Below the pieces are notes generated by a model. That model searched no databases and was not told where the DNA came from. It saw only the letters and a program-made list of their open reading frames with translations. This document shows positions 1 to 45,080 of a DNA stretch of 64,000 nucleotides, piece after piece. Each line of letters starts with the position of its first letter. Within the stretch, counting starts at the first letter, position 1. This stretch comes from Streptomyces durmitorensis (GTDB lineage Bacteria; Actinomycetota; Actinomycetes; Streptomycetales; Streptomycetaceae), in assembly GCF_023498005.1 (NCBI RefSeq), contig NZ_CP097290.1:62001-126000 (forward strand). Reading direction: 5' to 3'. A program made the position numbers and the translations under genes.

Positions 1-1
1 G

Positions 2-154
2 GTGGCGGCCGTGGGTGCGATGGAGGCCTGGCGCGAGCTGTCCCTCGGGGCGTTCACGCTGCGCACCATCGCCGGCTCGCACGCCGCTCCGCTGGAGAAC
101 GCCGAGGCGATGGTGGCCGAACTGCTCGCCGCGGTCCCGGGGCACGGCGTCTGA
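2..154 (+). CDS. C-terminal end of a thioesterase-like protein (partial, 5' end outside window)
   Basis: The last 50 codons of a gene that enters from the left and stops at 152-154. The visible tail has a Trp-Arg followed by a beta strand (GAFTLRTIAGSH) and then a terminal helix. In type II thioesterases and terminal PKS/NRPS thioesterase domains the same layout carries the catalytic His in a G-x-H motif, so the His in GSH is the likely equivalent. The gene could be a discrete type II thioesterase, or the terminal TE of an upstream PKS whose product would follow from the assembly line starting at 331. The serine nucleophile region is outside the window, so these cannot be separated. It is on the same strand as the PKS genes, 176 bp upstream of them. 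Confidence 0.5.
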   Translation: MAAVGAMEAWRELSLGAFTLRTIAGSHAAPLENAEAMVAELLAAVPGHGV

Positions 155-330: not shown

Positions 331-3300
331 ATGGGTTTTCATACAACGGAGGCAGTGGCCGTGGACATCGCGGAGTTCCTGCGCGACGCGGTCGCGGACC
401 TGCTCGGCACACCGGCGGACGCGGTTCCCGCGTCCGTCGCGCTGCGCGACCTCGGTGTCGATTCGGCAGGTGTGACCCAGCTGGCCGGTGCGCTGTCCAG
501 GCGGCTCGGCCGGCCTGTGCCCGGCTGGTTGCTGTGGCAGCACCCGACCGTGGCGGAGCTGGCTGCGGCGCTCGCCGGTGAGCGGGCGCCGGACGGCTCC
601 GCCACGGTCGAACGGCGCACTGCGGCAGGTGGCGCCGACGAGCCCATCGCGCTCGTGGGCCTGGGCTGCCGCCTGCCGGGCGGCGTCGACACACCGCAGG
701 CCCTGTGGGACGCCCTGCTCGCGGGCAGGGACGCCGTCGGCGAGGTGCCCCGGGATCGCTGGAACGCCGACGAGTGGTTCGACGACGACCCCCGGGCGCC
801 GGGCCGGATGTCCACACGCCGGGGCGGCTTCCTCGACGACGTGGCCGGCTTCGACGCCGCGTTCTTCGGCATCTCGCCCGCCGAGGCGGCCCGGATGGAT
901 CCTCAGCAGCGCATCGCCCTGGAAGTCGCCTGGTCGGCACTGGAGGACGCCAGGATCGTGCCCGGCACGCTGGCCGGCAGCCGTGCCGGGGTGTTCTTCG
1001 GCACGATGTGGCAGGAGTACCACCTGGCGACCGGCGCGGGGCCCGAGACGATCGGCTCGCACTCGGCGGTCGGCTGGGACACCTCGATCGTGCCGGCCCG
1101 CATCGCGTACGCGCTCGGTCTGGAAGGGCCGGCGTTCTCGGTGGGCTCGGCGTGCAGTTCGTCGCTCGCCGCGGTGCACATGGCGGCGCACAGTCTGCGC
1201 CGCGGCGAGTCCGACATCGCCCTGGCGGGTGGGGTCAGCCTGATGCTGCACCCGCACACCACCGTCGCGATGACGAAGTTCGGCGGCATGAACCCGGCGG
1301 GACAGTGCCGCGCCTTCGACGCGGACGCCGCCGGATACGTACGCGGCGAGGGCTGCGGCGTGGTCGTGCTGCGCCGCCTGTCGGACGCGCTGCGCGACGG
1401 CGACCGCATCTACGCGGTGCTGCGCGGCAGCGCCGTCAACAACGACGGAGCCTCCAACGGCCTGACCGCGCCCAACCCGCGCGCCCAGGCCGACGTGGTG
1501 CGTCAGGCCTGGCAGGCAGCGGGCGTCGCACCGCACCAGGTGGGGTACGTGGAGGCACACGGCACGGGTACCCCGCTGGGCGACCCGATCGAAGCGGCGG
1601 CACTCGGCGAGGTGTTCGCGCCGGGCCGCGAGACGCCGCTGCTGCTCGGCTCGGCCAAGACCAACTTCGGCCACCTGGAACCGGCCGCCGGTGTCCTTGG
1701 GGTCCTCAAGTCCGCTCTCGCCCTGCACCACGGCCGTCTCCCGGCCAGCCTGCACTTCGAACAGCCCAACCCGCTCATCGACTTCACCGCCCTGCGCCTG
1801 GAGGTGGTCACGGCCGCACGCGACTGGCCAAAGGGTCCCCGCCATGCGGGCGTGAGCGGTTTCGGCTTCGGCGGCACGAACGTCCACCTGGCCCTGACGG
1901 AGGCCCCGCACCGGCGGGCCCTGACCGCGCCCCCCGAGGCGGGGGAAGCGCCGGGCGGGGCACCGGACGTCGCGTTCTGCTTCTCCGGGCACGGCTCCCA
2001 GTGGACCGGCATGGGCCGCGATCTGCTGGCCGAGCCGGTCTTCCGGGCGGAGCTCACCGAGGCCGACCGGGCCGTGGCCGCCGTGACGGGCTGGTCCGTC
2101 CTGGAGGAACTCGTCGCCGCGGACAGCCGGCTGGAACGCACCGAGGTGCTTCAGCCCGTGCTGTTCGCCCTGCAGGTGTCGCTGGCCCGCACCCTGCGGC
2201 GCTGGGGCGTCGCCCCCGACGTGGTGTTCGGCCAGAGCGTCGGTGAGGTCGCCGCCGCCGTCGTCGCCGGCGCGCTCACCCTGGAACAGGGCGCCCATGT
2301 GATCGGCGTGTGGTCGCGGCTCGTGGCCGAACGCGCCGTCGGCACCGGGTCGATGCTGGTGTGCGAGCTGACCGCGCAACGGGCCGCCGCCCTCGCGCAG
2401 GGCCGCGTCACCGTCGCGGGGCACCTCGCGCCGGACCAGGTCTGCCTGTCGGGAGCCACGGCCGCGCTCGCCGAGGTGGAGCGCGAACTGGGCGACGCCG
2501 GCATCCGGACGTACCGCGTGCACATCGACTACCCCTCGCACAGCACGGAGCTGGCTCCGCTCGCCGACGAACTCGTCGCGCGCCTGGGCACGTTGAGCCC
2601 GGCGGCGGCCTCGATCCCCTTCCTGTCCACGGTGACCGGCGACTACGTGGAGGGGACCGCGCTCGACGCACGGTACTGGGCCCGCAACATGTGCCGCCCG
2701 ATGCTGCTCGACGAAGCTGTGCGCAGGCTGCCCCGGACCCCCGGGCGCCCGCTGCGCGTCGTGGAGATCGCCCCGCACCCGGTGGTGTCCAGGCCCGTGC
2801 GGCAGACGCTGTCCGACGCCGCGGACGACCTGGGCGACGAGACGAGGGTGCTGGCCGCGTGCCACCGGGACCGGCCCGCCGCCGAGACGCTGCAGGAGCT
2901 GCTGCACGCCCTGTGGTGCGACGGCGTCGACGTGGACTGGGCCGAGGCCACCGGCACCGCGCCGCAGACCGGCCGGGCCTGGCCGTGGGTCCTGTCCGCG
3001 AAGACCCCGGCGGCGCTGCGCGCCCAGGCCGCGGCTCTGCACGACCACGTCCGCGACCGTCCCGGTCTTTCCCTCGCCGATGTCGGCCACTCCCTGGCCA
3101 CCACGCGCACGGCGTTCTCACACCGCGCGGTCGTGGTCGCCAAGGACCGGGACGGCTTCCTGCGGGAACTCGCCGCGCTGGCCGCGGACCGCACCGCGCC
3201 CGGCCTGGTCACCGGCGACGGCGCCGAGGCGGCCGACGCGGGCCGCGGTGCCGTCATGGTCTTTCCCGGGCAGGGCGCGCAGTGGGTCGGCATGGCCCGT

Positions 3301-6300
3301 GAACTGCTCGACCACTCACCGGTGTTCGCCGACGCCTACGCCGCGTGCGCGCGGGCCCTGGACGAGTTCGTCGACTGGTCGCCGACCGAGGCGCTCGATG
3401 ACGAGGAAGCCCTGCTGCGGGTGGACGTGGTGCAGCCCGTGCTGTGGGCGGTGATGGTTTCGCTGGCCGAGCTGTGGCGCGCCCACGGAGTGCGGCCCGA
3501 GGTCGTGCTGGGGCATTCCCAGGGTGAGATCGCCGCGGCCTGCGTGGCCGGCGGTCTCTCCCTGGAGGACGGCGCCCGTGTCGTGGCGCTGCGGAGCCAG
3601 GCCATCGCGCGGTCCCTGGCCGGCCGCGGCGGCATGGTGTCGGTGGCCCTGCCGCGCACCGAGGTGGAGCGGCGCATCGCACGCTGGGACGGACGCCTGT
3701 CCGTGGCCGTGGTCAACGGCCCAGGACTGACCGCGGTGGCCGGTGCGTCCGACGCCCTGGACGAACTGCTGGAGCAGTGCGCTGCCGAGGACGTACGTGC
3801 GCGGCGTCTCGCCGTCGACTTCGCCTCCCACTCGCCCCAGATCGACACCCTGCGCGAGGAGTTGCTCGCGGCGCTCGCGCCCATCCGGCCGCGCTCCGCC
3901 GGGACACTCTTCTACTCGACGGTGACCGGCGGCCTCATGGACACGGCGGAGCTGGATGCCGAGTACTGGTTCTGCAACATGCGCAACACCGTGGAGTTCG
4001 CATCAGCCGTCGCCGCCCTCGCCGAGCGCGGGCACAGCCTGTTCGTGGAGGCCAGCCCGCACCCGGTGCTGACCCTGGCGGTCGAGGAGTCGGCGGGCGA
4101 GGCGGGCGTCACCGCGCTCAGCACCCTGCGCCGCCGCACCGACAGCACGGCCCGGTTCCTCTCCTCGGCGGCCGAGGCATGGGTGGGCGGCGCCGACGTG
4201 ACGTGGCAGGCGTCCTTCACCGCGGCCGGTCCTCGCGGTCCGCGCACGGTCGACCTGCCGCCGTACGCGTTCCAGCGCAGGCGCCACTGGCTGGACCCGG
4301 ACGAGAGCTCGCCCGCGTCGGCAGCGGCAGCGGCAGGGGACGCCGAGGACACGGAGTTCTGGTCCGCGGTGGAACGCGGCGACCTGGGTGCCCTCACCTC
4401 GTCCCTGGACGTCGACCCGGCTGCGGGCCTGGGCGACCTGATTCCCGCGCTGTCCGCGTGGCGGCGGCGCACCCGCGCGACGGCCGGGGTGCGCGACTGG
4501 CGGTACGAGATCACGTGGAAGCAGGTCGCCGACACCGCGGGACCGCCGCCTGCCGCGCCGTGGCTCGCCCTGCTGCCGGCGGGTGAGGCGCGGGCCGCCG
4601 AGGTGCTGCGGGGCCTGACGGACGCCGGTGTCGCCCTGATTCCGGTCGTCCTCGGCGACGAGGAGCGGGAACTGACCGCGAAGGCGCTGCGCAAGGCGCG
4701 CGAGGATCACGCGGCCCGCGCCGGGCAGGAGTTCGCCGGTGTCCTGTCGCTGCTGGCTCTCGCCACAGGAAGCGACCCGCGGCACTCGTCGGTGCCCGCC
4801 GGATACACAGCGACGCTGCGGGCCGTCCAGGCGCTCGGCGACGTGGAGCTCACCGCCCCGCTGTGGTGCGTGACGCGCGAAGCGACAGGAACCGGATCCG
4901 GCGACCACACCGTCGACCCCGCCCAGCGCATGATCTGGGGGCTGGGACGAGTGGCCGCCCTTGAGCACTCCGACCGGTGGGGCGGTCTGATCGACCTGCC
5001 GGGGACGCCGCACAGCGGCATGTGGCGGCAGCTGGCCGCACTGCTCGGTGGCGACGGCGCCGAGGACCAAGTCGCCGTGCGCGCCAACGGGGTACTGGCG
5101 CGCCGCCTGGTCCGTGCGGGAAAGCCGCCCCGCCGTACCTGGAGCCCCTCCGGGACCGTCCTGATCACCGGCGGCACGGGCGCGCTCGGCGGCCGTGTGG
5201 CGCGCTGGCTGGCCGAACAGGGGGCCCAGCGCCTGGTGCTGACCAGTCGTCGCGGCCCGGACGCGCCGGGCGCCGAGCAGCTCGTCGAAGAGCTGAGGGC
5301 ACTGGGCGCCGACGTGGTCGTGGAGTCCTGTGACGTGGCGGACCGCGAACAACTGGGCGCGGTCCTGGACCGTGCCGCGGCGCACGGACCGCTCACCGCG
5401 GTGCTGCACACGGCGGCCGTCCTGGACGACGCGACGATCGACGCGCTCGACCCCGGCCAGGTGGAGCGGGTCCTGCGCGTCAAGGCGCAGGGCGCCTGGA
5501 ACCTGCACGAGATGACGCAGGCGCACGACCTGTCGGCGTTCGTGCTGTTCTCGTCGTACGGGGCGACCGTCGGCATCCCCGGGCAGGGCAACTACGCCCC
5601 CGCCAACGCCTACCTCGACGGACTCGCCGAACTGCGCCACCTGCGGGGACTGCCCGCCACCTGTGTGTCATGGGGTGCCTGGGGCGGCGGCGGGCTGGCC
5701 GGCGGCGCCGTCCGGGGCATCCTGGAGCGGCACGGGGTGCCCGAGATGGACCCGGATCTCGCCCTGCTGGCCCTCCAGCAGGCCATCGACAGCGGACGGC
5801 CCTGCCAGACCGTGGCCGATGTGCGCTGGCCCCGGTTCCGCACGGCGTTCACGGCCGCCCGGCCGAGCCCGCTGCTCGCCGATCTGCCCGATGCCGTGGA
5901 GCTGGCCCGGGTGGGCTCCGCGCCCGCCGCAGTGGCGGGCCAGGACCAGGGCAAGCCGGATCTGCGCGGGCGTCTGGAGAGGCTGCCGCACGGACAGCGC
6001 ACGGACGCCGTCCTGGAGGTGGTGCGCACGCACACCTCGGCCGTCCTTGGCTACCGCCCCGAGGAGCGGGTGCAGGACCGGTCCTTCAAGGAGCTCGGGT
6101 TCGACTCGGTGACCGCTGTCGAACTGCGGAACCGGCTGAACGCGGAGACCGGTCTGCGGCTGCCGGCCACGCTCGTCTTCGAGTATCCGACGCCGACCGC
6201 GCTGGCCGGCCACGTGCTGGCCGAACTCGACGTCGGCGCCGCTGCCGGGACGCAGCGGCCGATGGACGTCGACGCGCTGGAGGCTGCCGTCACAGCCCTG

Positions 6301-6489
6301 GACGCGACGGCTCTGGCCGCGGTGGACGCGGAGCGCCTGTGGGCCGTCTCCCGTTCTCTTCAGAAGATCCTCGTCCACGCCGGTGCCCGGCAGGCGCCCC
6401 CGGAGGAACCGCACGAGGCGCCGCAGGCGCTCGACGACGCGTCGGACGACGAGTTGTTCCAGTTCATCGATGAGAAGTTCGGACTCTGA
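331..6489 (+). CDS. Type I PKS PksA: starter ACP plus extension module 1 (ACP-KS-AT-AT-KR-ACP)
   Basis: 2052 residues. The ATG at 331 was chosen because GAGGTG lies just upstream; the frame is open further upstream but those codons are not PKS-like. Domains: N-terminal ACP (about 10-85, LGVDS, Ser45); KS (about 104-525, Cys275 in SACSSS); first AT (about 545-830, GQSVGE, Ser636); a KS-AT type linker (LSAKTPAAL); second AT (about 975-1270, GHSQGE, Ser1063, VDFASHS, methylmalonyl type); KR (GGTGALGG from 1614, LDD 1698-1700, Tyr1755, B type); ACP (LGFDS, Ser1926); C-terminal docking tail. In the first AT, the residue 25 after the serine is Trp661, where the second AT has Arg1088. That Arg binds the extender carboxylate, and Trp there marks starter ATs for monocarboxylic acyl-CoAs such as the DEBS loading AT (family knowledge). 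I infer that the first AT primes the N-terminal ACP. It starts the PKS operon, and PksB begins 1 bp after its stop. Confidence 0.93.
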
Positions 6490-6490
6490 C

Positions 6491-9400
6491 ATGGCGAACG
6501 AAGACAAGCTGCGCGACTACCTCAAGCGCGTCACCGGCGAACTGGACACGGCGCGGGAGCGACTGCGGCAGGCGGAGGCCAAGCACCGGGAGCCGATCGC
6601 CGTGGTGGCGATGAGCTGCCGGCTGCCGGGCGGCGTCGCATCGCCCGAGGACTTCTGGCGGCTGCTCGACGAGGGCACCGAGGCCATCGGCCCGTTCCCC
6701 GAGGACCGGGGCTGGGACACGAAGGGGCTCTACGACCCGGACCCGGACAACGCGGGAACCGTGTACGCCACCGGCGGCGGATTCCTCGACGAGGCGGCCG
6801 CGTTCGACGCGGACTTCTTCGGGATCTCGCCCCGCGAGGCCGTCGCGATGGATCCGCAGCAGCGGCTCCTCCTGGAGAACGCCTGGGAGGCGTTCGAGGG
6901 CGCGGGCATCACCGTGGAGTCGGTGCGGGGCCGGGCGACGGGTGTCTACATCGGCACCAACGGTCAGGACTACGCGGATCTGATCGGTGGCGGCAGCAGT
7001 GAGGGGCACGCTCTGACGGGCGCCGCCGCCAGTGTCCTGTCCGGACGCATCGCCTACGCGCTGGGCCTGCGGGGCCCGGCCCTGACCATCGACACGGCCT
7101 GCTCCTCCTCGCTGGTGGCGGTGCACCTCGCGGTGCAGGCGCTGCGGCGGGGCGAATGCTCGCTGGCGCTGGCAGGCGGGTCCACGGTGATGGCCACGCC
7201 GCACCTTCTCGTCGAGTTCAGCCGGCAGCGCGGCCTGGCGCCGGACGGGCGCTGCCGGGCCTTCTCCGACCACGCCGACGGCACCGGTTTCTCCGAGGGC
7301 AGCGGCATGCTGCTCCTGGAGCGGCTCAGCGACGCCCGCCGCAACGGCCACCGTGTGCTCGCCGTGGTCCGGGGCACCGCCGTCAATCAGGACGGTGCGT
7401 CCAACGGACTCACCGCGCCCAACGGGCAGGCACAGCAGGACGTGATCCGGGCCGCCCTGGCCGACGCCGGGCTCGGCGCCGCCGACGTCGACGCGGTGGA
7501 GGCACACGGCACCGGCACCCGGCTCGGCGACCCGATCGAGGCCCGCGCACTGATCGCCACGTACGGGGCGGCCCGCGGGCCGGGCGACCCGCTGTGGCTG
7601 GGCGGAGTGAAGTCCAACATCGGTCACACGCAGGCCGCCGCCGGAGTGGCGGGCATCATCAAGATGGTCCAGGCGCTGCGCCACGACCGGCTGCCGCGCA
7701 CCTTGCACGCCCAGGAGCCGAGCACCCACGTCGACTGGTCCGGCGGCGGGGTGCGGCTGCTGTCGGAACCGGTGCCATGGACGCCTGGAGAGCGCGTGCG
7801 CCGCGCCGGTGTGTCCTCGTTCGGCATCAGCGGCACCAACGCGCACATCGTCCTGGAGGGCCCCGAGGGCAGTACGCCCGAGCCGGCACCGGACGCGGAG
7901 CCCGCGCAGGACACCGTCCGCCGCCCGGTCGTGCCGTGGCTGCTCTCCGGCCGGGACGAGAGCGCGCTGCGCGCACAGGCGCAGCGGCTCGCCGACTCCG
8001 TGACGGCCCGGCCCGCCACGGACGTGGTGGACGTGGCGTACTCGCTGGCGACCGCGCGCACCGCGTTCGGGCACCGGGCGGTGGCCGTGGGCGGCGACCC
8101 CGAGGAACTCCTGAGCGCCGTACGGGCGATCGCCGACGGCACCGCGGCCCCTGGCACCGACGCGCTGCCGGGCCGGACCGCGTTCGTCTTCCCCGGGCAG
8201 GGGGCCCAGCGGCCCGGCATGGGCCGGGAGCTGTACCGGGACTTCCCGGCGTTCGCCGCGGCCTTCGACGCGGTCTGCGCCGAACTCGACCCGCTGCTCG
8301 AACGACCGCTGCGGGACGTCGTGTTCGCCGAGCGCGGCACCCCCGGGGCGGAGCTCCTGGACCAGACCGGATGCACGCAGCCCGCGCTGTTCGCCGTAGA
8401 GGTGGCGCTGTTCCGGCTCATGGAGTCGTGGGGAGTCACCGCCGACTACGTGATGGGTCACTCGGTGGGCGAGCTGGCGGCCGCGCACGTGGCGGGCGTG
8501 CTCTCCCTCGCCGACGCCTGCGCCCTGGTCGCCGCCCGCGGCCGGCTGATGCAGGCCCTGCCCGCCGGGGGAGCGATGCTCGCCGTCAAGGCACCCGAAG
8601 CGGAGGTGGCGCCGCTGCTCGCGGGCCACGCGCACGCGGCGGGCGTGGCCGCGGTGAACGGTCCCGACTCAGTGGTGATCTCCGGGCCCGCCGAAGCCAT
8701 CGACGCGGTGGCCGCCGAACTGGCCGCCCGCGGCACCAAGTCACGGCGGCTGACCGTCTCGCACGCCTTCCACTCGCCGTTGATGGACCCGATGCTCGCC
8801 GACTTCGCCGCGGTGGCACGGCGCATGACGTACCACGCGCCGACGCTCGGTCTGATCGGCAACCTCACGGGCGAGCTCGTCGTCGACGAGGTGCGTGACC
8901 CGGACTACTGGGTGCGGCACGTGCGTGAGTCCGTCCGGTTCGCCGCCGGCACCCGTGCGCTGACCTCTGCGGGGGTGACCCGCTTCGTGGAACTCGGCCC
9001 GGACGCCACCGCCGCCGCGATGGTGCAGGACTGCCTGGCCGACCAGGGCGTCGAGGACACGACGGCAGTGGTGGCGCTCCTGCACCGCGAGCGCCCGGAG
9101 ACGCGGACGCTGATCAGCGCGGTCGCCCGCGCGCACGTCCACGGCGTCGCCGTCGACTGGGAACGGTTCTTCGCGGGCATGGGCGCGGACCAGGTGGAGC
9201 TGCCGACGTACGCCTTCCAGCGGGCGCGGTACTGGCCCGAGCCCTCGGCCGCCGCGACCGACACCGCGGCCCTGGGCCTCGGCGATCCCGCCCACCCGTG
9301 GCTGGGCGCGCTCACGGCGTCCGCCGACGGCTCCTGCCACATCTTCACCGGCCGGCTCTCGCTCGCCGAGCATCCCTGGATCGCCGACCACACGGTCTTC

Positions 9401-12190
9401 GGCCGGGCGGTGGTGCCGGGCACCGGACTTCTGGAACTGGCCCTGGCCGCCGCGCACCGGTCGGGCGCCGCCGGCGTGGCCGACCTCACCCTGGTGGCGC
9501 CGCTCGTGCTGCCCGCCGACGAGGCGGTGCACGTCCAGGTCGTCGTCGGCGGCGGTTCCGCCGCCGAGAGCGGACCGCGGACGGTGACGGTGCACAGCCG
9601 CAGCGCGGCCGGCGCCGATGGCCTTGACGACTGGACGCTGCACGCCACGGGCGAGCTGAACCCGGCTCCCGTGGACGCGTCCGGTGGCTTCGCCTGGGCC
9701 GGCCAGTGGCCGGTGCCGGGTGCGCAACCGGTCGCCATGGACGGCTTCTACGAGTGGTTCCAGGACAAGGGAATCGACTACGGCCCGGCGTTCAGGGGCA
9801 CCGCGGCACTGTGGCGGCAGGGCGACACGGCGTACGGCGTGGTGCGGCTGCCCGGCCAGGGCAGCGCCACGGACGGGTTCGGGCTGCATCCGGCGCTGCT
9901 GGACGCGGCGTTGAACGTGATGAGGGCCGTGTCGGTGGACGACAACACGGACGGGCAGGACGGCGTGCTGCTGCCGTTCGCCTGGTCGGGCGTCGAGTTG
10001 TACGCCACCGGCGCCCGCGAACTGCGCGTACGGGTCGACGTCCGTGACACCGCCGCCGGCCGGCATCTGACGGTCGAGGCCGCCGACGCCACCGGCACCC
10101 CGGTCGCCCGCGTGCAGGGCCTGGAACTGCGCCGGGCCACCGCCGCGCAGATCACGGCGGCCGTGGCGGACACCGCCGCACGGGACCTGCATGAGCTTCG
10201 GCTGCGGCCGGTGCCCCGCCCCCACGCATCGGCGCAGCGGCCCGCCACCGTCGTCCTGGGCGGCGAGGGACGCATCGCCGAAGCGCTCGACTCCCCCGCC
10301 GTGCCCTCCTTCGACGCGCTGTCGGCCACCTTGGACGGTGGTACGCCGCCGCGGCGCGTCCTCGTCGACGCGACGGGCCTCATCGACCGCTCCGACGAGG
10401 AGGTGACGCAGGCGGCGGCCGACGCCTTGGCACTGCTCAACCGGCTGCTCGGCGAACCCCGCCTGGAAGAGGCGGAACTGGTGTGGGTGACGCGGACGGC
10501 ACCGAGCCCGTACGACGACCTGGCCGCGGACGCAGGCGCGGACGCAGGCGCCGACGGCCGGGGCCTCGCTCCGGCGTCGCTGCGCGGCCTGCTGCGCACC
10601 GCCCGCAGCGAGTACCCGGACCGGTCGCTGCGCACCGTCGAGATCAGCGGCGCGCACAGCGGTTCGGCATCCGAGTCGCTGCCGCACGCCTTGGACGTGC
10701 CCGACGAACCGGAGCTCGTGGTCCGTGGCACGGACGTGTTCGCACCGCGCCTGGTGCGCGCCGAAGCATCGGCGCCCGACGTGCCGGCTCCGCCCCTGGA
10801 CCCGGACGGCACGGTCCTGCTCACCGGCGGCACCGGCGAGCTGGGACGGGCCGTGGCCCGGCATCTGCTGCGGGAGCACGGCGCACGCCGTCTCGTCCTG
10901 ACGTCCCGGCAGGGTCCCGACGCCCCGGGCGCCGACGCCCTGGTGCACGAACTGACCGCGGCGGGCGCGCTGAGCGTGCGGCTCGCCGCCTGCGACGTGG
11001 CGGACCGGGACGCGGTGGCACAGCTCCTGTCCGGCATCGACCCGGCACACCCGCTCACCGGCGTGGTGCACCTGGCCGGTGTTCTCGACGACGGCCTGGT
11101 GACGGCGCAGAACGGCGAGCGCCTGGCACGCGTCTTCGCGCCGAAGGTGCACGGCGCACTGCACCTCGACGAACTGACACGGGGGCAGAACCTGGCGGCG
11201 TTCGTGCTCTTCTCCTCGGCCGCCGGTGTGCTCGGCACGGCGGGCCAGAGCACCTATGCCGCCGCCAACACCGTCCTGGACGCCTTGGCCGCCCGGCGCC
11301 GGCAGCGCTCCGAGACGGCGCACAGCCTCGCCTGGGGCCTGTGGCAGCAGAGCGGAACCGGCATGACCGCCCACCTCGGCACGGCCGAACTGTCCCGGAT
11401 GCGGCGGCAGGGCATCGCTCCGATCCCGGTGGAGGACGGTCTGCGGCTCCTCGACGAGGCACTGTGCCGACCGCAGCAGCCGAACCTGGTGCCGCTGCGG
11501 CTCGACACCGCCGCGGCCGCCCGCCACCTCGGCGAGGGTGGCCAGGTCGCCCCGGTGCTGCGCGCGCTGGTGCGGCAGCCGGAACTGCCCCGAGCGGCGG
11601 CGGGGCCGTCCGCCGCGGACCCGGCGTCACTGCGCCAGCGGCTCGAACCGCTGACCGTGGAGCGCAGGACCCGACTGGCCACCGAGGCCGTGCTGGAGGA
11701 GGCCGCCGCGGTGCTCGGGCTGAGCAACCCGACGTCCGTCTCGGCGGACCAGGTCCTGAAAGACCTCGGCCTCGACTCGCTGATGGCGGTGGAGCTGCGC
11801 CGCCGGATCGCCGCACGGGCCGGTGTGCGGCTGCCGTCGACACTGGCGTTCGACTACCCGACTCCGGCCGCCATCGCCGGACTCATCCTGACCCGGCTCG
11901 ACCTCGCGGCCGACCCGCAGAGCACGGCAACGGCCGAGGACCCCGACACCGTCCTGGCCCGGGTCCTCGGCCGTGTGTCGGCGGACGACCTGCACCGCAG
12001 CGGCCTGTTGGAACTCCTCGTGGACCTCGCCGACCGCACGAACTCCCCGGACCCGGACGGCGCGCAGGTCGGCCCGGCCGCCCGGTCCGCATCCCCGTCC
12101 GGCACACCCCGTCCCGTGGAGCGGTCCGTCGACGACATCAACGCGGAGCTCGACAGCCTGCTGGCCTCGGTCGGCGACGAGGCCTTCTGA
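6491..12190 (+). CDS. Type I PKS PksB: extension module 2 (KS-AT-DH-KR-ACP)
   Basis: 1899 residues. The ATG at 6491 is 1 bp after the PksA stop and opens a typical N-terminal docking helix ([14 protein letters not shown]). Domains: KS (Cys204); AT (GHSVGE Ser658, Arg683, HAFH 758-761, so malonyl type); DH (His967 in [10 protein letters not shown], Asp1138 in LLDAALN); KR (GGTGELGR from 1446, LDD, Tyr1589, B type); ACP (LGLDS, Ser1763); then a long acidic tail ending in [18 protein letters not shown]. The predicted step adds a malonate unit and leaves an E double bond at the former carbonyl of module 1. One oddity is Asn1142 at the position that is His or Gln in the other DH domains of this cluster, which might slow dehydration. 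The start is probably translationally coupled to PksA, as the Shine-Dalgarno sequence is weak. Confidence 0.93.
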
Positions 12191-12269: not shown

Positions 12270-15200
12270 ATGAGTACTCCGCCCTCCGACCGGATGGAAG
12301 CCGCCCTGCCCGCGATCCGTCTGCTCCAGAAGCGTGCGGCCGATCTGGAGGCCCAGCGCACGGAGCCGATCGCTGTGGTGTCGATGGCCTGCCGCCTGCC
12401 GGGGGGCATCGGGACGCCGGAGGCGTTCTGGGACCTGCTGTCGCGCGGCGGGGATGCGGTGGGGGGTCTGCCCAAGCGGTGGGAGAGCCTGGGTCTGTAC
12501 GACCCGGACCCGCAGTCCCCCGGCAAGTCCTATGCCCGCGAGGGCGGGTTCATCGAGGACATCGAGGGCTTCGACGCCGAGTTCTTCGGCATCTCCCCGC
12601 GTGAGGCGCAGTCGATGGACCCGCAGCAGCGGATCGTCCTGGAGACGGCATGGGAGGCACTGGAGAGGTCGGGCACCCGCCCCAGCACCCTCAACGAGTC
12701 CCGCACGGGCGTCTACCTGGGCACCATGGGCTCCGACTACGACGCCCTGACCCACTACGATCTGGACGCCCTCGACGGCTATATGAGCTCGGGCAACGCG
12801 AGCAGTGTGCTGTCGGGCCGTGTCTCCTACGCGCTGGGCCTTCAGGGTCCGGCCGTCACGGTGGACACGGCGTGCTCGTCGTCGCTGGTCGCCCTGCACC
12901 TCGCGGTCTCCGCGCTGCGTACCCGGGAGTGCGGGCTCGCCCTCGCGGGTGGTGTCACCGTCATGTCGACGCCGGCGACGTTCGTGGAGTTCAGCCGCCT
13001 CAAGGGCCTTTCGGCCGACGGCCGTTGCAGGAGCTTCTCCGCCGATGCCAACGGGGTTGGCTGGGCCGAGGGCGCAGGCATCGTGGTTCTCAAGCGGTTG
13101 TCGGATGCCGAGCGTGACGGTGACCGTGTGCTGGCCGTGATCCGGGGAAGCGCGGTCAACCAGGACGGCCGCAGCCAGGGTCTGACCGCCCCCAACGGCC
13201 CCTCGCAGCAGCGGGTGGTGCAGGACGCGCTGGCCGCGGCCCGTCTGTCGCCGGACGACATCGACGTGATCGAGGCGCATGGCACGGGCACCAGCCTGGG
13301 TGACCCGATCGAGGCCGGAGCGTTGGCGGAGGTCTTCGGCCCCACGCGTACGGCCGAACGGCCGCTGCTGCTGGGTTCGTCGAAGTCGAACATCGGCCAC
13401 GCCCAGGCGGCAGCGGGCGTCATCGGCGTGATCAAGACAGTGCTGGCCCTCCAGCACGACACCCTGCCCAAGACCCTGCACGCCGACCGCCCCAGCCCCC
13501 ACATCGAGTGGGAGGACTCGGGCCTGGAACTTCTCCAGGACGCCCGCCCCTGGGAGCGCGGCGAGCGAGCCCGCCGGGCAGGCATCTCCTCCTTCGGTCT
13601 CAGCGGTACGAATGCGCATGTGGTGATCGAGGAGGCGCCTGCTGTCGAGGTGGCTGAGGCGGTCGAGGTGCCTGAGGTTGTTGAGGGTCCTGGGCTTGCG
13701 TTGCCGGTTGTGGTGTCGGGGCGGAGTGAGGCTGCGCTGCGGGAGCAGGCGGGGCGGTGGGCGGACTGGCTGGAGAGTCACGGCGAGGTCCCGCTTGCCG
13801 ATGTGGCCGCGACGGCTGCTCTGCATCGCACTCATTTCGATGCGCGTGCGGCGGTGTTGGCGGAGTCGGTGGAGCAGGCCGCAGAGACGCTGCGGTTGGT
13901 TGCTGCGGGTCAGGCGGATGAGCGGGCCGTTACGGGGACGGCTGGGCTGGGCGGTAAGACGGTGTTCGTCTATCCCGGTCAGGGCAGTCAGTGGACGGGT
14001 ATGGGCCGTGACCTGCTGGCCCAGTCGCAGGTCTTTGCCGACACTGTTGATGCGTGTGATGCCGCGTTGAGGCCGTTCACAGGCTGGTCGGTGCGGGAGG
14101 TCCTCACCGGTGAGGGAGGAGATCACCCGCCGCTGGACCGGGTGGATGTCATCCAGCCCGCCCTGTTCGCCATGGGGATCGCCCTCTCCGCGCTGTGGCG
14201 CTCACGCGGTGTGGAGCCCGATGCGGTCATCGGCCATTCCCAGGGCGAAGTCGTCGCCGCCGTCGTGGCTGGTGCGCTCACCTTGGAGCAGGGTGCGCAG
14301 ATCGTCGCGCAGCGTTCGCAGGCGGTGCGTACCTGCTCCGGCCAGGGCGGGATGGCTTTGATCGAGCGTCCGCAGGCGGAGGTTGAGGAGTTCATCGCCC
14401 CCTACGGCGAAGCCCTCTCCATCGCCGCGGTCAACACCGCCACCTCGACGGTGGTCTCCGGTGAAGCCGCAGCGCTGGACCAGCTGGTGGCCGAGCTGCA
14501 AGGGCGCGACGTCTATGCCCGCAAGGTCAATGTCGACTACGCCTCCCACCACGCCCAGATGGATCCCCTCCTGCCGGATCTGGCGGCGGGTTTCACCAAC
14601 ATCACCCCCACCCGCACGGACACGGCGTTCTACTCCACGGTCACCGGGGAGCTGACCGAGGGTACGGATCTTGATGGCGGTTACTGGTGCCGCAACCTGC
14701 GCAAGACGGTCCGCTTCGACCAGGCCCTGACCCGTCTCCTGGACGATCACCACACCACCTACATCGAGATCAGCGCCCACCCCGTGCTGTCGATGCCGCT
14801 GACCAATGCTGCTGCCGAGCATGACGGCATCGTGATCGGCACCCTCACCCGCAACCACGGGTCCCTGGCCCAGCTCCTGCGCAACCTCAGCCTCCTGCAC
14901 GTCCAGGGCCACCCCACTCCCTGGGACCAGATCCTCCCCACTCCCACCGGGCAGGTTCTTCTGCCCACCTACGCCTTCCAGCACGAACACTTCTGGCTGG
15001 ACCCCACCCACACTCCTCAGGACACCACTTCCCTGGGCCTGCATGCTTCGGCGCATCCCTGGCTGGGTGCTGCGACCGCGCTGGCCAACGGTGAGGGTCA
15101 TCTCCTCACCGGACGCCTCTCCCCTGCCCAGCACCCCTGGCTCACCGACCACACCGTCTACAACACCCCCCTCCTCCCCGGCACCGGACTACTGGACCTC

Positions 15201-18200
15201 GCGTTCGCCGCTGCCCGTGAGGTCGGGGCGGCCGGCGTCGGAGAGCTGACGCTGACCGAACCGCTGGTGGTGCGGGATGCCGTGCGGATACAGGTTGTGG
15301 TCGGCCCGGAGTTGGACGGTCGTCGGTCGCTGGCCGTCTACAGCCAGTCGGAGGACTCGCTGGGCGGCGTGTGGCGTCGGCACGCGACGGGCGACCTCGT
15401 GGCGGTCTCGCCGGACGACGGTTCCGGCTCGGACGCGCTCACACAGTGGCCGGTCGCGGGTGCCGAACGCGTGGAACTCGACGGGTACTACGACCGGTTC
15501 GAGACGCAGGGCCTCGGGTACGGACCGGCGTTCCGGGGACTGCGGGAGCTGTGGCGTGACGGGGACCGAGCCTTCGGCCTCGTACGCCTTCCCGAGGAGG
15601 CCGGCCCGGGTGAGTTCGGCGTGCACCCGGCACTGCTCGACGCCGCCCTGCATGTCATCGCGGCGCTGCGCGACGGGGACGACTCCGTGGTACTGCCCTT
15701 CGAGTGGAGCGGCGCGGAGCTGCTGGCCGGGGGTGGTACGGAACTGCGGGTCGAGGTCGAGCTCGACCGGGCGGCGTCCGTCGCCCGCATCAGGGCGGTG
15801 GACACCGCGGGGCACCCGGTCCTGTCGGTGCGGGAGCTGCGGCTGCGCGAGGTGACCTCCGATCAGATACGGGTCGCCGAGCGGGTGGAGCACCTGTACC
15901 GGGTGGCGTTCGAGCCGCTGCGCCAGGCGGGCGCGGACGTGGCCACTGCCGGTGACGACGGCGCGGACGTGCTCGACGGTGCGGTCGTTCTCGGTGACCG
16001 GTCCGAGCTCGGTGCCGCGCTCGGCCTCGACACGGCCGCCGACGTGGACGAGCTGCTGGCCGGGGAGTCCGTACCGGGTCTCGTCCTGGTCGACGCGACG
16101 CGTTCCGTGGCGGGCGAGAGCGGTGCCACGCAGGTGGCCACCGCTGCCCTGACCACGCTTCAGAGCCTTCTCGGTGAGCCTCGCCTCGCGTCGACGGCGC
16201 TGGTTTGGGTGACGCGCCGGGCCGTGGGTGACGGTGTGGCCGACCTGGCGCACTCCCCGCTGTGGGGGCTGGTCCGGGCCGCCGCGAACGAGTACAGCGA
16301 GCGCTCCCTGCGTCTGGTGGATCTGGATGCCGGGGTGGTGGACGCGGAACTGCTGGAGCAGGCGGTCGCGGTCGAGGGTGAGCCCGAGATCGTGCTGCGC
16401 GACGGCCACATCCTCGTCGCCCGCCTGACCCGCACCGAGCAGCCCGAGCAGCCCGAGCAACCTGGGCAACCTGGGCAGCTCGACCAGCCCCAGGCCCCGC
16501 GCTTCGATCTCGATGGCACGGTCCTGATCACTGGTGGTACTGGTGAGTTGGGCAGGCAGCTGGCCACCCACCTGGTTCGTGAGCACGGCATCCGCCATCT
16601 GACGCTGACCTCGCGTCGGGGTGCCGAGGCTCCCGGTGCTGAGGAGTTGGTCGCGGCTCTGACCGAGGCCGGGGCTGACACCGTTGACCTCCGGGCCTGC
16701 GACATCAGCGACCACCAGCAGACAGCCGCTCTCATCGGCGCGCTGGAACGCCCTCTCACCGGTGTCTTCCACCTGGCGGGCACTCTCGACGACGGTCTCA
16801 TCACCGCCCAGACCCCTCAGCGTCTGGAGAAGGTACTTGCCCCCAAGGTCGATGGTGCCCTGCATCTCCACACGCTGACCGCCGATCACGACCTGGCCGC
16901 CTTCGTACTGTTCTCCTCCGCCGCCGGAATCTTCGGTACGGCGGGGCAGAGCACCTACGCGGCGGCCAACACCTTCCTCGACGCGTTGGCCGAACGCCGT
17001 CACGCGCAGGGGAAGGTCGCCACCAGCCTCTCCTGGGGGCTGTGGCAGCAGGCGGGCATCGGCATGACCGCCCACCTCGGTGACACCGAACTCGCCGAGA
17101 TCCGTCGCCAGGGCATCGGTTCGCTGTCGGAGGCGGAGGGTCTGCGGCTGCTCCACGCCGCGCTCGCCCAGCCGCATGCGCACCTCGCCCCGGTGAAGTT
17201 GGAGCTGGCCGAGTTGCAGCGATCCGCGGACCGGGGTGGCGAGGTCACGCCGAGGTTCCGCGGGCTCGTGCGGCCGCGGCTGCGGCAGGCGGGCCGGGCG
17301 GCGGCACGGCCGTCAGCGCTCCGGGACCGCCTGGCCGCCCTGTCCGCCGCCCAGCGGCACCAGGATCTGACGCGTCTGGTGTGCGACGAGGCGGCGATCG
17401 TCCTCGGCGTGTCCGACGCCGCAGGCCTCGGTCCGGACCAGGTCCTGAAGGATCTGGGCATCGACTCGGTGATGGCGGTCGAACTGCGCCGTCGCCTGTC
17501 GGCAGCGACGGACACCGCCCTGCCCGCGACGCTCGCCTTCGACTACCCCACTCCCACCGCCATCGCCGGACTCCTCCTCGACAAGCTCGACCTGACGAAC
17601 GCTCCCCAGCGGACGGCCACCCCGCGCCGCACTCGCCGCGCAGGAGCGGACGAACCCATCGCGGTGGTGTCGATGTCCTGCCGCCTGCCCGGTGGCATCA
17701 ACACCCCTGAGGACTACTGGCAGTTGTTGGTCAGTGGCGGGGATGCGGTGGGGGGTCTGCCCAAGCGGTGGGAGAGCCTCGGTCTGTACGACGCGGACCC
17801 GGAGGCGCTCGGCAAGTCCTACGCCCGCGAGGGCGGGTTCATCGACGACGTCGAGGGCTTCGACGCGGAGTTCTTCGGGATCACGCCGCGTGAGGCGCAG
17901 TCGATGGATCCGCAGCAGCGGATCGTCCTGGAGACCGTGTGGGAGGCCCTGGAGAGGTCGGGCATCCGCCCCGAGACGCTCGCGGAATCCCGCACGGGTG
18001 TCTACCTGGGCACGATGGGCTCCGACTACGACAACCCCCACAACCACGACTACGAGGCTCTCGACGGCTACCTCGGCACGGGCAACACGAGCAGTGTCCT
18101 GTCCGGCCGCGTGTCGTACACCCTCGGTCTGCAGGGCCCCGCCCTGACCGTGGACACGGCGTGCTCGTCGTCGCTGGTCGCCACTCACCTCGGTGTGACC

Positions 18201-21200
18201 GCGCTGCGCAACGGCGAGTGCGACACCGCCTTGGCCGGTGGCGTGACGGTCATGTCGACGCCCGCTCTCTTTGTGGAGTTCAGCCGCCTGAAGGGCATGG
18301 CCGCGGACGGCCGTTGCAAGAGCTTCTCCGCCGACGCCGATGGTGCCGGCTGGGCCGAGGGCGCGGGCGTACTGGTCCTGAAGCGGCTCTCGGATGCCGA
18401 GCGTGATGGTGACCGTGTGCTGGCCGTGATCCGGGGCAGTGCGGTCAACCAGGACGGCCGCAGCCAGGGCCTGACGGCCCCCAACGGTCCCTCGCAACAG
18501 CGTGTGGTGCAGGATGCGCTGGCCGCGGCCCGTCTGTCGCCGGATGACATTGACGCGATTGAGGCGCACGGCACGGGCACCAGCCTGGGTGACCCGATCG
18601 AGGCCGGAGCGTTGGCGGAGGTCTTCGGTCCTACGCGTACGGCTGAACGGCCGTTGCTGCTGGGTTCGTCGAAGTCGAACATCGGTCACGCCCAGGCGGC
18701 GGCCGGAGTCGCGGGCGTCATCAAGATGATCCTGGCCCTCCAGCACGGCACCCTGCCCAAGACCCTGCACGCCGATGAGCCCAGCTCTCACATCGAGTGG
18801 GAGGACTCCGGGCTGGAACTTCTCCAGGACGCCCGTCCCTGGGAGCGCGGCGAGCGGACTCGCCGGGCAGGTATCTCCTCGTTCGGTCTCAGCGGTACGA
18901 ATGCGCATCTGATCCTGGAGGAAGCACCCGCCGTCGAGACCACGCAGACGGTTGAGGGTCCTGGGCTTGCGTTGCCGGTTGTGGTGTCGGGGCGGAGTGA
19001 GGCTGCGCTGCGGGAGCAGGCGGGGCGGTGGGCGGATTGGCTGGAGAGTCACGGCGAGGTCCCGCTTGCCGATGTGGCCGCGACGGCCGCTCTGCACCGC
19101 ACCCACTTCGACACCCGCGCCGCCGTCCTGGCCTCGTCAGCCGATGAGGCGGTGGCCGGACTTCGGGCGGTTGCTGCGGGTCAGGCGGATGAGCGGGCCG
19201 TTACGGGGACGGCTGTGCCGGGTGGTAAGACGGTGTTCGTCTATCCCGGCCAGGGCAGCCAGTGGACCGGCATGGGCCGTGACCTGCTGGCCCAGTCACA
19301 GGTCTTCGCCGACACCGTTGACGCCTGCGATGCCGCGTTGCAGCCGTTCACCGGCTGGTCGGTGCGTGAGGTCCTCGTCGGTGAGGGAGGAGAGCATCCG
19401 CCGCTGGACCGGGTGGATGTCATCCAGCCCGCCCTGTTCGCGATGGGTGTTGCTCTGTCTGCGCTGTGGCGCTCACGTGGTGTGGAGCCCGATGCTGTCA
19501 TCGGCCACTCCCAGGGCGAAGTCGTCGCCGCCGTCGTGGCTGGTGCGCTCACCCTGGAGCAGGGTGCGCAGATCGTCGCCCAGCGTTCGCAGGCGGTGCG
19601 TACCTGCTCCGGCCAGGGCGGGATGGCCCTGATCGAGCGTCCGCAGGCGGAGGTTGAGGAGTTCATCGCCCCCTACGGCGAAGCCCTCTCCATCGCCGCG
19701 GTCAACACCGCCACCTCCACGGTGATCTCCGGCGAAGCCGAAGCACTGGATGAGATCGTCGCCCGCCTGACCGAGGACGGTGTCTATGCCCGCAAGGTCA
19801 ATGTCGACTACGCCTCCCATCACGCCCACATGGACCCCCTCCTGCCCGGCCTTGAGGTGGGCTTCACCAACATCACCCCCACCCGCACGGACACGGCGTT
19901 CTACTCCACGGTCACCGGGGAGCTGACCGAGGGCACGGATCTCGATGGCGGTTACTGGTGCCGCAACCTGCGCAAGACCGTCCGCTTCGACCAGGCCCTG
20001 ACCCGTCTCCTGGACGATCACCACACCACGTACATCGAGATCAGCGCCCACCCCGTGCTGTCGATGCCGCTGACCAATGCGGCCGCCGAGCATGACGGCA
20101 TCGTGATCGGCACCCTGACCCGTAACCACGGGTCCCTGGCCCAGCTCCTGCGCAACCTCAGCCTCCTGCACGTCCAGGGCCACCCCACCCCCTGGGAGCA
20201 GATCCTCCCCACCACCAGCCCCACCAGCCAGGTCCTCCTGCCCACCTACCCCTTCCAGCACGAACACTTCTGGCTGGAGTCCACGAGCCGTGGCACCAAC
20301 CCCGGCTCACTCGGCCTGGACGCTTCCGCGCATCCCTGGCTGGGTGCTGCCACCGCGCTGGCCAACGGTGAGGGTCATCTCCTCACCGGACGTCTCTCCC
20401 CTGCCCAGCACCCCTGGCTCACCGACCACACCGTCTACAACACTCCCCTCCTCCCCGGCACCGGACTACTGGAGCTGGCCTGGACCGCAGCCACCGAAAC
20501 CGGCGCCGCACGAGTCGAGGAACTCACCCTCGCCGAACCCCTCGTACTCCCCGAACCCGGCGACAACAACAGCCACATACGCCTCCAGGTCACCGTCGGT
20601 GCGGCCGAGGTGGACGGACGGCGTCCGCTCTCGGTGCACAGTCGGCGGGAGGACACCCAGGAGGAGTGGACCTGCCACGCCACCGGTCTGCTCGGTGCCG
20701 ACGCGGTCGACGCCGGTCTCCAGGGAGGCGGCGATGCCGGCGGGTCGGGTCGGGAGTTCGCCGAGCTGGCGCGCTGGCCTGTAGCCGGTGCGGAACCGCT
20801 GGACGTGGCCGCCTTCTACGAGCGGTACGCGGCGCAGGGAGTGGGGTACGGTCCGGCGTTCCGGGGCGTGACCGAGCTGTGGCACCGGCAGGGCAGCGCC
20901 TTCGCTCTGGTCCGGCTGCCGGACGGGCTCGACGGGTCCGCGTACGGCGTGCATCCGGCGCTGCTCGACGCGGCGGTCCAGACGCTCGCGGCGGCGCGTG
21001 ACGCGAACGCCGCGGCCGGTACGGAGCCGGATCAGGTACTGCTGCCGTTCGAGTGGAGCGACGCCGAGCTGCATCGTGCCGGCGCCTCCGAACTGCGCGT
21101 GCGCGCCGACTGGGACCAGGACACTGCCGAGGGCAGCGTCTGGGTGGTGGACGCCACCGGGAGCCCGCTGGCCTCGGCCCGGCTGCGGGCCAGGGCGGCG

Positions 21201-23168: not shown

Positions 23169-26100
23169 GCGCTACCGACGTGCAGAAGCTCGAGACCTAT
23201 CTGCGACGTACGACGAACGCGCTGCTGCAGGCCGAGAACGACCTCGCCTCGGAGCGCGCCGCGAAGACGGAGCCGATCGCGGTGGTGTCGATGTCGTGCC
23301 GCCTGCCCGGTGGCATCAACACCCCTGAGGACTACTGGCAGTTGTTGGTCAGTGGCGGGGATGCGGTGGGGGGCCTGCCCAAGCGGTGGGAGAGCCTTGG
23401 CCTGTACGACGCGGACCCGGAGGCGGTCGGCAAGTCCTATGCCCGCGAGGGCGGTTTCATCGACGACATCGAGGGCTTCGACGCCGAGTTCTTCGGCATC
23501 TCCCCGCGTGAGGCGCAGTCGATGGACCCGCAGCAGCGGATCGTCCTGGAGACGGCATGGGAGGCACTGGAGCGCGCGGGCATCCGCCCCGAGACGCTCT
23601 CGGAGTCCCGCACCGGCGTCTACCTGGGCACGATGAGCTCCGACTACGGCAAGCAGACGGGCCTCGGCGACCTGGACGGGTACGTCAGTACGGGCAATGC
23701 GAGCAGTGTGGTGTCGGGCCGTGTCTCCTACGCGCTGGGCCTTCAGGGTCCGGCCGTCACGGTGGACACGGCGTGCTCGTCGTCGCTGGTCGCCACCCAC
23801 CTCGGCGTGACCGCGCTGCGCAACGGTGAGTGCGACACCGCCCTCGCCGGTGGCGTGACGGTCATGTCGACGCCCGCTCTCTTTGTGGAGTTCAGCCGCC
23901 TGAAGGGCATGGCCGCGGACGGCCGTTGCAAGAGCTTCTCCGCCGACGCCGATGGTGCCGGCTGGGCCGAGGGCGCGGGCGTACTGGTCCTGAAGCGGCT
24001 CTCGGATGCCGAGCGTGATGGTGACCGCGTGCTGGCCGTGATCCGGGGCAGCGCGGTCAATCAGGACGGCCGCAGCCAGGGCCTGACCGCCCCCAACGGC
24101 CCCTCGCAGCAGCGGGTGGTCCAGGACGCACTCACCGCCGCCCGCCTCACCCCCGACGACATCGACGCCATCGAGGCGCATGGCACCGGCACCAGCCTGG
24201 GCGACCCCATCGAGGCCGGAGCACTCGCCGAGGTCTTCGGCCCCACGCGTACGGCCGAACGGCCCCTGTTCCTGGGTTCGTCGAAGTCGAACATCGGCCA
24301 CGCCCAGGCGGCGGCCGGAGTCGCGGGCGTCATCAAGATGATCCTCGCTCTTCAGCACGGCACCCTGCCCAAGACGCTGCACGCCGATGAGCCCAGCTCT
24401 CACATCGAGTGGGAGGACTCGGGCCTGGAACTTCTCCAGGACGCCCGTCCCTGGGAGCGCGGCGAGCGGACTCGCCGGGCGGGTATCTCGTCGTTCGGTC
24501 TCAGCGGTACGAATGCGCATCTGATCCTGGAGGAAGCCCCCGCCGTCGAGACCACGCAGACGGAGGGCACGGACGCACCGCATCTCCCGGTGCCCATCCT
24601 CCTGTCGGGCCGGGACGAGACAGCCCTGCGCGCCCAGGCACAGCGCTGGGCCGACTGGCTGGAGAGCCAGCCCACCGTGTCACTGACGGATGTGGCCACC
24701 ACAGCCGCCCTGCACCGCACCCACTTCGATGCGCGTGCGGCGGTGCTGGCGGAGTCGGTGGAGCAGGCCGCAGAGACACTGCGGTTGGTTGCTGCGGGTC
24801 AGGCGGACGAGCGGGCCGTGACCGGCACGGCTGTGCCGGGCGGTAAGACGGTGTTCGTCTATCCCGGTCAGGGCAGTCAGTGGACCGGTATGGGCCGTGA
24901 CCTGCTGGCCCAGTCGCAGGTCTTTGCCGACACCGTTGACGCCTGCGACGCAGCGTTGAGGCCGTTCACTGGCTGGTCGGTGCGGGAGGTCCTCACCGGC
25001 GAGGGAGGAGATCATCCGCCGCTGGACCGGGTCGATGTCATCCAGCCCGCCCTGTTCGCCATGGGTGTTGCCCTGTCCGCGCTGTGGCGCTCACGCGGCA
25101 TCGAGCCCGATGCGGTCATCGGCCACTCGCAGGGCGAAGTGGTTGCGGCTGTGGTGGCTGGTGCGCTCACCCTGGAGCAGGGCGCGCAGATCGTCGCCCA
25201 GCGTTCCCAGGCGGTGCGCACCTGCTCCGGCCAGGGCGGCATGGCCCTCATCGAGCGCCCCCAGGCCGAAGTTGAGGAGTTCATCGCCCCCTACGGCGAA
25301 GCCCTCTCCATCGCCGCGGTCAACACCGCGACGTCCACGGTGGTCTCCGGCGAGGCCGCAGCACTGGACCAGCTGGTGGCCGAGCTGCAAGGGCGCGACG
25401 TCTATGCCCGCAAGGTCAATGTCGACTACGCCTCCCACCACGCCCACATGGACCCCCTGCTTCCCGGCCTTGAGGCGGGCTTCACCAACATCACCCCCAC
25501 CCGCACGGACACGGCGTTCTACTCCACGGTCACCGGGGATCTCACCGAGGGCACGGACCTTGATGGCGGCTACTGGTGCCGCAACCTGCGCAAGACCGTC
25601 CGCTTCGACCAGGCCCTGACCCGTCTCCTGGACGACCACCACACCACGTACATCGAGATCAGCGCCCACCCGGTGCTGTCGATGCCGCTGACCAATGCCG
25701 CTGCCGAGCATGACGGCATCGTCATCGGCACCCTCACCCGCAACCACGGGTCCCTGGCCCAGCTCCTGCGCAACCTCAGCCTCCTGCACGTCCAGGGCCA
25801 CCCCACCCCCTGGGAGCAGATCCTCCCCACCACCAGCCCCACCAGCCAGGTCCTCCTGCCCACCTACGCCTTCCAGCACGAACACTTCTGGACGGACCCC
25901 ACCCACACTCCTCAGGACACCACTTCCCTGGGCCTGAACGCTTCCGCGCATCCCTGGCTCGGTGCTGCGACCGCGCTGGCCAACGGTGAAGGCCATCTCC
26001 TCACCGGACGTCTCTCCCCTGCCCAGCACCCCTGGCTCACCGACCACACCGTCTACAACACCCCCCTCCTCCCCGGCACCGGACTACTGGAGCTGGCCTG

Positions 26101-41340: not shown

Positions 41341-41362
41341 CGGTGTGGCGTCCCCTCGTGGG

Positions 41363-41617: not shown

Positions 41618-41672
41618 GTCGTGATTCCGTCCTGTTCGTGTGCGGCCTGGCGGTGGGTGCGCCCGGGCCGGG

Positions 41673-42524: not shown

Positions 42525-42540
42525 GACTCGTCCGGCTCCG

Positions 42541-45036: not shown

Positions 45037-45080
45037 GCCTCTCCTTGGAGATGACGGCCGGCCGGAAGGTGTGAGCGCGC

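Follow-up and report, generated by a model that had tools for sequence, protein, structure and literature searches.

An ACP-KS-AT-AT-KR-ACP protein of Streptomyces durmitorensis as a probable split loading module of the kind described in myxobacteria

Introduction

The MiuA protein of miuraenamide biosynthesis has been described with the domain order acyl carrier protein (ACP)-ketosynthase (KS)-acyltransferase (AT)-AT-ketoreductase (KR)-ACP, which was called an unusual starter module arrangement and was also attributed to soraphen, myxothiazol, myxalamide, and chondramide (PMC10051162). An ACP-KS-AT1-AT2-KR-ACP order was likewise reported for JomP1 of jomthonic acid biosynthesis in Streptomyces caniferus, where it was termed rare and earlier described in myxobacteria, and where the first AT was conjectured to load the starter, with reference to soraphen, myxothiazol, and myxalamid (PMC6117699). 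Here, we analyzed a stretch of 64,000 nucleotides from Streptomyces durmitorensis (the window, G000:C2:62001-126000), located on a contig of 147,211 bases in a 9.86-Mb genome of two contigs, in which the gene g3 (331 to 6489) encodes a polyketide synthase (PKS) of this layout. The original prediction, made from the DNA alone, could name no described example; since the JomP1 and MiuA papers print the same order, this part of it was not borne out, and the design is already known in Streptomyces and myxobacteria.

We read g3 as a myxobacterial-type split loading module joined in one protein to extension module 1, in which AT1 would load a monocarboxylic starter and AT2 the extender, and we put the probability of this reading at roughly 0.85. 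The phrase "split loading module," applied to polyketides in myxobacteria, had no match in the literature searched. Established for g3 are its domain order, its catalytic residues, the Trp/Arg contrast between the two ATs, its place as the only one of six PKS genes to open with an ACP, and the common descent of its KS (KS1) and AT1 with myxobacterial split modules.

Domain architecture of g3

A single unbroken frame, from the ATG at 331 to the stop codon at 6487-6489, codes for the 2052-residue protein. Pfam and the seed scans agree on the order ACP-KS-AT1-AT2-KR-ACP: Pfam detects a KS, a KR, two acyltransferase stretches, and two PP-binding stretches, while the residue ranges of the seed scans are given with the features below. 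The N-terminal ACP is the first domain, with no AT ahead of it, and the two ATs lie contiguously between the KS and the reductive part. The KS-AT linker matched by Pfam (PF22336 and PF22621, residues 887 to 946-953) stands 3' of AT1 and ahead of AT2, which confirms that the extra AT sits, as predicted, between KS1 and the linker of the second AT; the predicted domain order and its coordinates were likewise exact.

331..6489, + strand: g3, probable split loading module plus extension module 1, 2052 residues (frame, Pfam, seed scans)
367..582, + strand: N-terminal (starter) ACP, residues 13-84, carrier Ser45; Pfam docking domain not found ahead of it (seed scan, residue check, Pfam)
634..1920, + strand: KS1, residues 102-530; active-site Cys275 and the two His in place (no KSQ); belongs to the split-module KS1 lineage (seed scan, residue check, KS tree)
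1957..2940, + strand: AT1, residues 547-850, probable starter-loading acyltransferase with GQS (Ser636), Trp661 at the Arg site, and His737 (seed scan, residues; model with a predicted local distance difference test score, pLDDT, of 94.2)
2989..3189, + strand: KS-AT linker domain between AT1 and AT2 (PF22336, PF22621)
3253..4200, + strand: AT2, residues 975-1290, extender AT with GHS (Ser1063), Arg1088, and a FASH motif, putatively methylmalonyl-like (seed scan, residue check)
4348..4476, + strand: PKS dimerisation element (PF18369)
5131..5700, + strand: KR, residues 1601-1790, NYAPAN and LDD motifs (seed scan, residue check)
5998..6237, + strand: C-terminal ACP of extension module 1, residues 1890-1969 (seed scan, residue check)
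6238..6486, + strand: C-terminal tail, probable docking region (sequence)

A frame artefact behind this layout was ruled out by the stop-free frame and by a relative of the same order on an S. canus plasmid, which also argues that the order did not arise by chance. Two other loading architectures were rejected for g3: a KSQ-AT-ACP module, because Cys275 is present instead of Gln, and an AT-ACP didomain, because the ACP comes first and the KS lies between ACP and AT.

Contrast between the two acyltransferases

Malonyl-type substrates have a free carboxylate that is held by an Arg of the AT, and the loading ATs of AT-ACP didomains, as in 6-deoxyerythronolide B synthase (DEBS) and avermectin, are without this Arg. 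The AT2 of g3 has GHS at 1061-1063 and Arg1088 at the 25th position after the catalytic Ser (Ser+25), whereas AT1 has GQS at 634-636 and Trp661 at Ser+25, each residue being exactly as predicted. Catalytic residues are present throughout the protein: Ser45 in the N-terminal ACP, Cys275 in KS1, Ser636 and His737 in AT1, Ser1063 and His1167 in AT2, the NYAPAN and LDD motifs in the KR, and the Ser of the C-terminal ACP. To check for an Arg at the carboxylate site of AT1, we used the alignments listed with solved ATs, five in each of two sets; these ATs come from DEBS, from pikromycin and one further modular PKS, and from the mycobacterial PpsA, PpsC, and MAS-type enzymes. All place Trp661 on an Arg, with no gap between Trp661 and the Ser. 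For the avermectin loading AT, the comparison covered its fold and its rows in the tables of matches. A recent tandem duplication of AT2 was ruled out, as AT1 and AT2 are 35% identical and fall in separate parts of the AT tree. The FASH motif of AT2 is close to YASH, the motif of methylmalonyl-type ATs (PMC10646177), hence its predicted methylmalonyl-like extender, and the LDD motif of the KR is that of the B type (PMC5785472).

Among the distinct AT domains of the loci collected, Ser+25 is Arg in all 70 AT2s and in 187 of 196 single ATs, but the 69 AT1s have it in 19 cases only, the rest carrying His (18), Trp (14), Tyr (10), Gln (4), Met (3), or Leu (1); GQS occurs in 41/69 AT1s and 0/70 AT2s. 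These counts cover AT matches of at least 240 residues with a GxSxG-type motif, each exact duplicate once (this leaves out, for example, the L194 and L196 AT1s and the dead L038 AT2), and include the AT pair of L212 in both the AT1 and the AT2 rows. They point to a relaxed position in AT1 and to an ordinary extender AT in AT2. Since 19 AT1s keep the Arg, including those of a Streptomyces group with KR (L088, L201, and L203-L205), its loss is not a defining mark of AT1.

Distribution and descent of tandem-AT modules

The original prediction had proposed a search for the same domain order in other clusters, and this order was found repeatedly. Tandem ATs were recognized by a full or near-full-length match to a profile over the AT1-linker-AT2 junction, a half match denoting an ordinary module. 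Because 12 tandem modules, that of the window among them, went into the profile, and only 5 to 20 candidates were scored in each genome (E limits, 1e-60 and 1e-70), the censuses are lower bounds that lean to similar modules. Tandem junctions were detected in 33 of 392 Streptomyces genomes, S. durmitorensis included (35 places), and in 19 of 108 genomes of the family of Sorangium (58 places). Among the matches listed, a class-wide sample gave full-length junctions in at least 5 of 394 genomes, again including S. durmitorensis, and a phylum sample around Sorangium (188 genomes) gave them only in G041.

Contiguous ATs are present in 56 of the 58 stretches then read. An ACP-KS-AT-AT start is shared by 52 of the 56, all but L208, L212, and two loci cut by contig ends (L218 and L232). 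L196, counted in the 52, has its AT matches split in three, and the other two stretches (L213 and L214) were fetched for their stand-alone AT. Six plasmid regions were read as well: the four from S. canus, Streptomyces sp. WA1-19, NBC_00162, and NBC_01296 have the same order, that of S. griseofuscus holds a decayed relative, and that of S. scopuliridis an ordinary module; three further S. canus plasmids are known by an AT1 match at 67% alone. Three of 47 loci fetched from the genome_contigs collection by AT1 similarity are tandem (L041-L043), from two Crossiella and from Actinokineospora pegani.

Two side observations concern these sets. A conserved Streptomyces protein, mostly of about 2030 residues (L180-L193, L195, L207, L209, and L211), opens with ACP-KS-AT-AT, has no detected KR, and has an AT1 that combines GQS with a His in place of the Arg. 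The PKS of L212 (genome G338), which falls outside the KS1 clade, carries a mid-protein tandem pair of near-identical ATs that may reflect an assembly error or a recent duplication.

Of the 52 KS1s from tandem modules, the KS tree (98 rows) places 51 in one clade (SH-aLRT, the Shimodaira-Hasegawa-like approximate likelihood ratio test, 98), which otherwise holds only L214 and one long-branched row; the single KS1 outside it is that of L212, and all ten KS rows from the other PKS genes of the window lie outside as well. In the AT tree (166 rows), 14 Trp AT1s, two Leu/Met AT1s, and four stand-alone ATs form one clade (SH-aLRT 99), the Trp AT1s coming from Streptomyces, Pseudonocardiaceae, and three loci of the Sorangium family (L168, L223, and L226). 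The AT2 rows, requiring 13 changes, are scattered among extender ATs of two types, one with the window, S. canus, and Crossiella and the other with WA1-19, NBC_01296, Actinokineospora, and the myxobacterial Trp modules. Rows more than 93% alike (AT tree, with 30 random Arg-bearing single ATs) or 90% alike (KS tree) were dropped; both trees are from short searches with SH-aLRT support only, and SorA, MxaF, StiA, and JomP1 are not in them by name.

Given the single KS1 clade, the single Trp AT1 clade, and the scattered AT2s, KS1 and AT1 appear to have been inherited together while AT2 was swapped. This points to the odd order being a design that recurs and has been passed down in Actinomycetota and Myxococcota alike, and not a one-off rearrangement. 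In genome mining, starter units can accordingly be read by a rule of thumb, namely a KS of the KS1 lineage with an AT2 that keeps the Arg and an AT1 that often lacks it, and for starter engineering, KS1-AT1 suggests itself as a natural unit.

Gene cluster around g3

Six PKS genes share one orientation, with g3 to g6 inside the window and g1 and g2 upstream of these:

1..154 (G000 C2:47224-62154), + strand: 3' end of g2, whose last base is window 154; this PKS/nonribosomal peptide synthetase (NRPS) gene encodes condensation, adenylation, and carrier domains, with a thioesterase at the C terminus (seed scans, Pfam)
6491..12190, + strand: g4, next PKS, KS-AT-KR-ACP, starting with docking domain PF08990 (seed scans, Pfam)
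12270..23168, + strand: g5, bimodular PKS (seed scans)
23165..35050, + strand: g6, bimodular PKS (seed scans)

Only g3 starts with an ACP, the other five starting with a KS after a leader of about 31 to 41 residues. Since g3 alone opens with an ACP and g2 carries a thioesterase at its end, g3 most likely encodes the first and g2 the last protein of a six-gene PKS/NRPS line. A Pfam docking domain is present on g4 and g2 and was not found on g1, g3, g5, or g6. We consider it unlikely that g2, lying upstream, feeds a chain to the N-terminal ACP, since its C-terminal domain is a thioesterase and, a weaker reason, no docking domain was found on g3. Similar DNA occurs on S. canus plasmids, and on the plasmid read, the next gene upstream is annotated as an adenylation-domain protein.

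Further along the window, 39134-47137 holds genes for a HAD-like protein, an acyl-CoA dehydrogenase, a 3-hydroxyacyl-CoA dehydrogenase, a fused AT-ACP-FkbM methyltransferase, a thioesterase, and an S-adenosylmethionine synthetase, and resembles a cassette for methoxymalonyl-ACP equipped with a fused AT of its own. A lanthionine synthetase-like gene (DUF4135, LANC_like; L009:12238-15627) lies on the same contig as the PKS cluster.

Proposed mechanism and alternatives

AT1 would pick a monocarboxylic acyl-CoA, given that Trp661 stands where the Arg grips the carboxylate of malonyl-type substrates, and put the acyl group onto the N-terminal ACP, which would pass it to Cys275 of KS1. The normal, Arg-bearing AT2 would charge the C-terminal ACP with the first extender, methylmalonyl-like by its motif, whereupon KS1 would condense, the KR would reduce, and the diketide would go on to the next protein. 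The substrate class, ACP partner, gene order, and each acyl-transfer step are predictions drawn from these features and from the published proposals. The original prediction that AT1 loads a monocarboxylic starter onto the upstream ACP across the KS is thus upheld in part: AT1 has its Ser and His intact and no Arg, g3 is likely first, the N-terminal ACP is its likely partner, and published proposals agree, while the monocarboxylic chemistry itself is what we infer. In WA1-19, a citramalate synthase gene is sited between the PKS genes, which, at a guess, would fit a branched short-chain starter in that strain.

Several points weigh against this reading. The Arg is kept at the equivalent position in 19 of the 69 AT1s. 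The fold comparison singles out no loading AT, the extender ATs 8jpu, 2hg4, 8g4u, and 8jpt scoring like 4rl1. The lack of a docking domain is weak evidence for the first place of g3, since g1, g5, and g6 are likewise without one by Pfam. The JomP1 authors argue that AT2 may be inactive, with no extension at that module (PMC6117699), and the dual-AT module of Kid13 uses dicarboxylic units (PMC10646177).

The alternative that survives best, though we consider it unlikely, is that AT1, like VinK, acts as an acyltransferase between ACPs, moving the starter to the N-terminal ACP from another carrier protein and not from CoA. VinK is absent from the 50 rows listed in the fold comparison, from which we draw no conclusion. 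Macrolactam pathways set the precedent, in that a dedicated transferase (SceG/VinK) hands the starter from a free carrier to the loading-module ACP, and relatives of AT1 do exist as stand-alone genes; yet no AMP-binding starter-pathway enzyme was found among the 27 distinct flanking proteins scanned, a part of the neighbours, and the adenylation domain that was seen belongs to g2. We regard as very improbable that both ATs load dicarboxylic extenders or that AT1 helps AT2, as proposed for Kid13, whose mutants suggest that dual ATs can cooperate: Kid13 has the different order AT-KSQ-AT-ACP, whereas KS1 of g3, with Cys275, is not a decarboxylating KSQ and AT1 has no Arg. Least probable of all is a dead AT1 beside another enzyme loading the starter ACP, for although GQS departs from the usual GHS and JomP1 suggests that one AT of a pair can be defective, the Ser and His are invariant across the aligned rows, GQS is common to 41 of 69 AT1s, and AT1 is the domain left intact in the decayed S. 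griseofuscus relative.

Stand-alone and decayed relatives of AT1

This last relative, a 1269-residue ACP-KS-AT1-AT2 protein in a type II PKS cluster of the S. griseofuscus plasmid pSGRIFU1 (L038:10291-14100), retains the Ser, Trp, and His of AT1, whereas the Ser of its ACP and that of AT2 are gone, as are the Cys and one of the two His in its KS. As AT1 is its only domain that looks intact, AT1 can evidently persist alone, which fits an autonomous transferase.

The closest relative of AT1 in its own genome, 56% identical, is a stand-alone AT with GAS and Trp at C2:10937-12316 (start inferred). It follows genes for a cytochrome P450, a terpene synthase, and a polyprenyl synthase (L009:7399-12316, about 50 to 55 kb upstream of the window start), and the same four genes recur in the same order, with 66 to 95% protein identity, in G913, G882, and the WA1-19 plasmid, i.e., in four genomes or records in all, one being the window's own contig. 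In G882 (L214:3615-8501), the block lies upstream of a PKS, with two frames named by reading in between, one P450-like and a small one ferredoxin-like. The first KS of this PKS falls in the KS1 clade, but the PKS has neither starter ACP nor AT1. Tentatively, the GQS/GAS-Trp ATs may be a mobile starter-transferase family that acts in cis in split modules and in trans as free genes, both beside the terpene genes and as the surviving domain of the decayed S. griseofuscus protein, the free forms acylating a carrier or a terpenoid; if so, these would represent an undescribed use of a PKS loading AT.

Comparison with known systems

New in this work are the counts of spread, the Arg census, the KS1/AT1 lineage with AT2 swaps, and the stand-alone and decayed relatives in the Trp AT1 clade. 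The codescent of KS1 and AT1 and the free-standing relatives were not met in literature searched for other points, none of the searches being aimed at them and subscription journals being mostly uncovered. Like g3, the AT-ACP didomains of DEBS and avermectin pass an acyl-CoA to the first ACP, but their AT comes first, with no KS in between. Kid13, the kidamycin loading module, is similarly a Streptomyces loading protein with two ATs and differs from g3 in its order and in its dicarboxylic starters (PMC10646177). Closer are the starter modules of soraphen, myxothiazol, myxalamid, and chondramide, in which KS1 parts the loading AT from the starter ACP and for three of which the starters are benzoyl or branched acyl (PMC6117699). 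The two nearest systems are likened to g3 by description, not by sequence. MiuA has the same order, and its first AT is assigned to loading of the acetyl-CoA starter, but it is myxobacterial, and its first extender is assigned as malonyl, against the methylmalonyl-like extender predicted for g3. JomP1 shares with g3 the order, the Streptomyces host, and a first AT proposed for an unusual starter; whereas its AT2 is argued to be possibly inactive, that of g3 has its Ser, Arg, and His.
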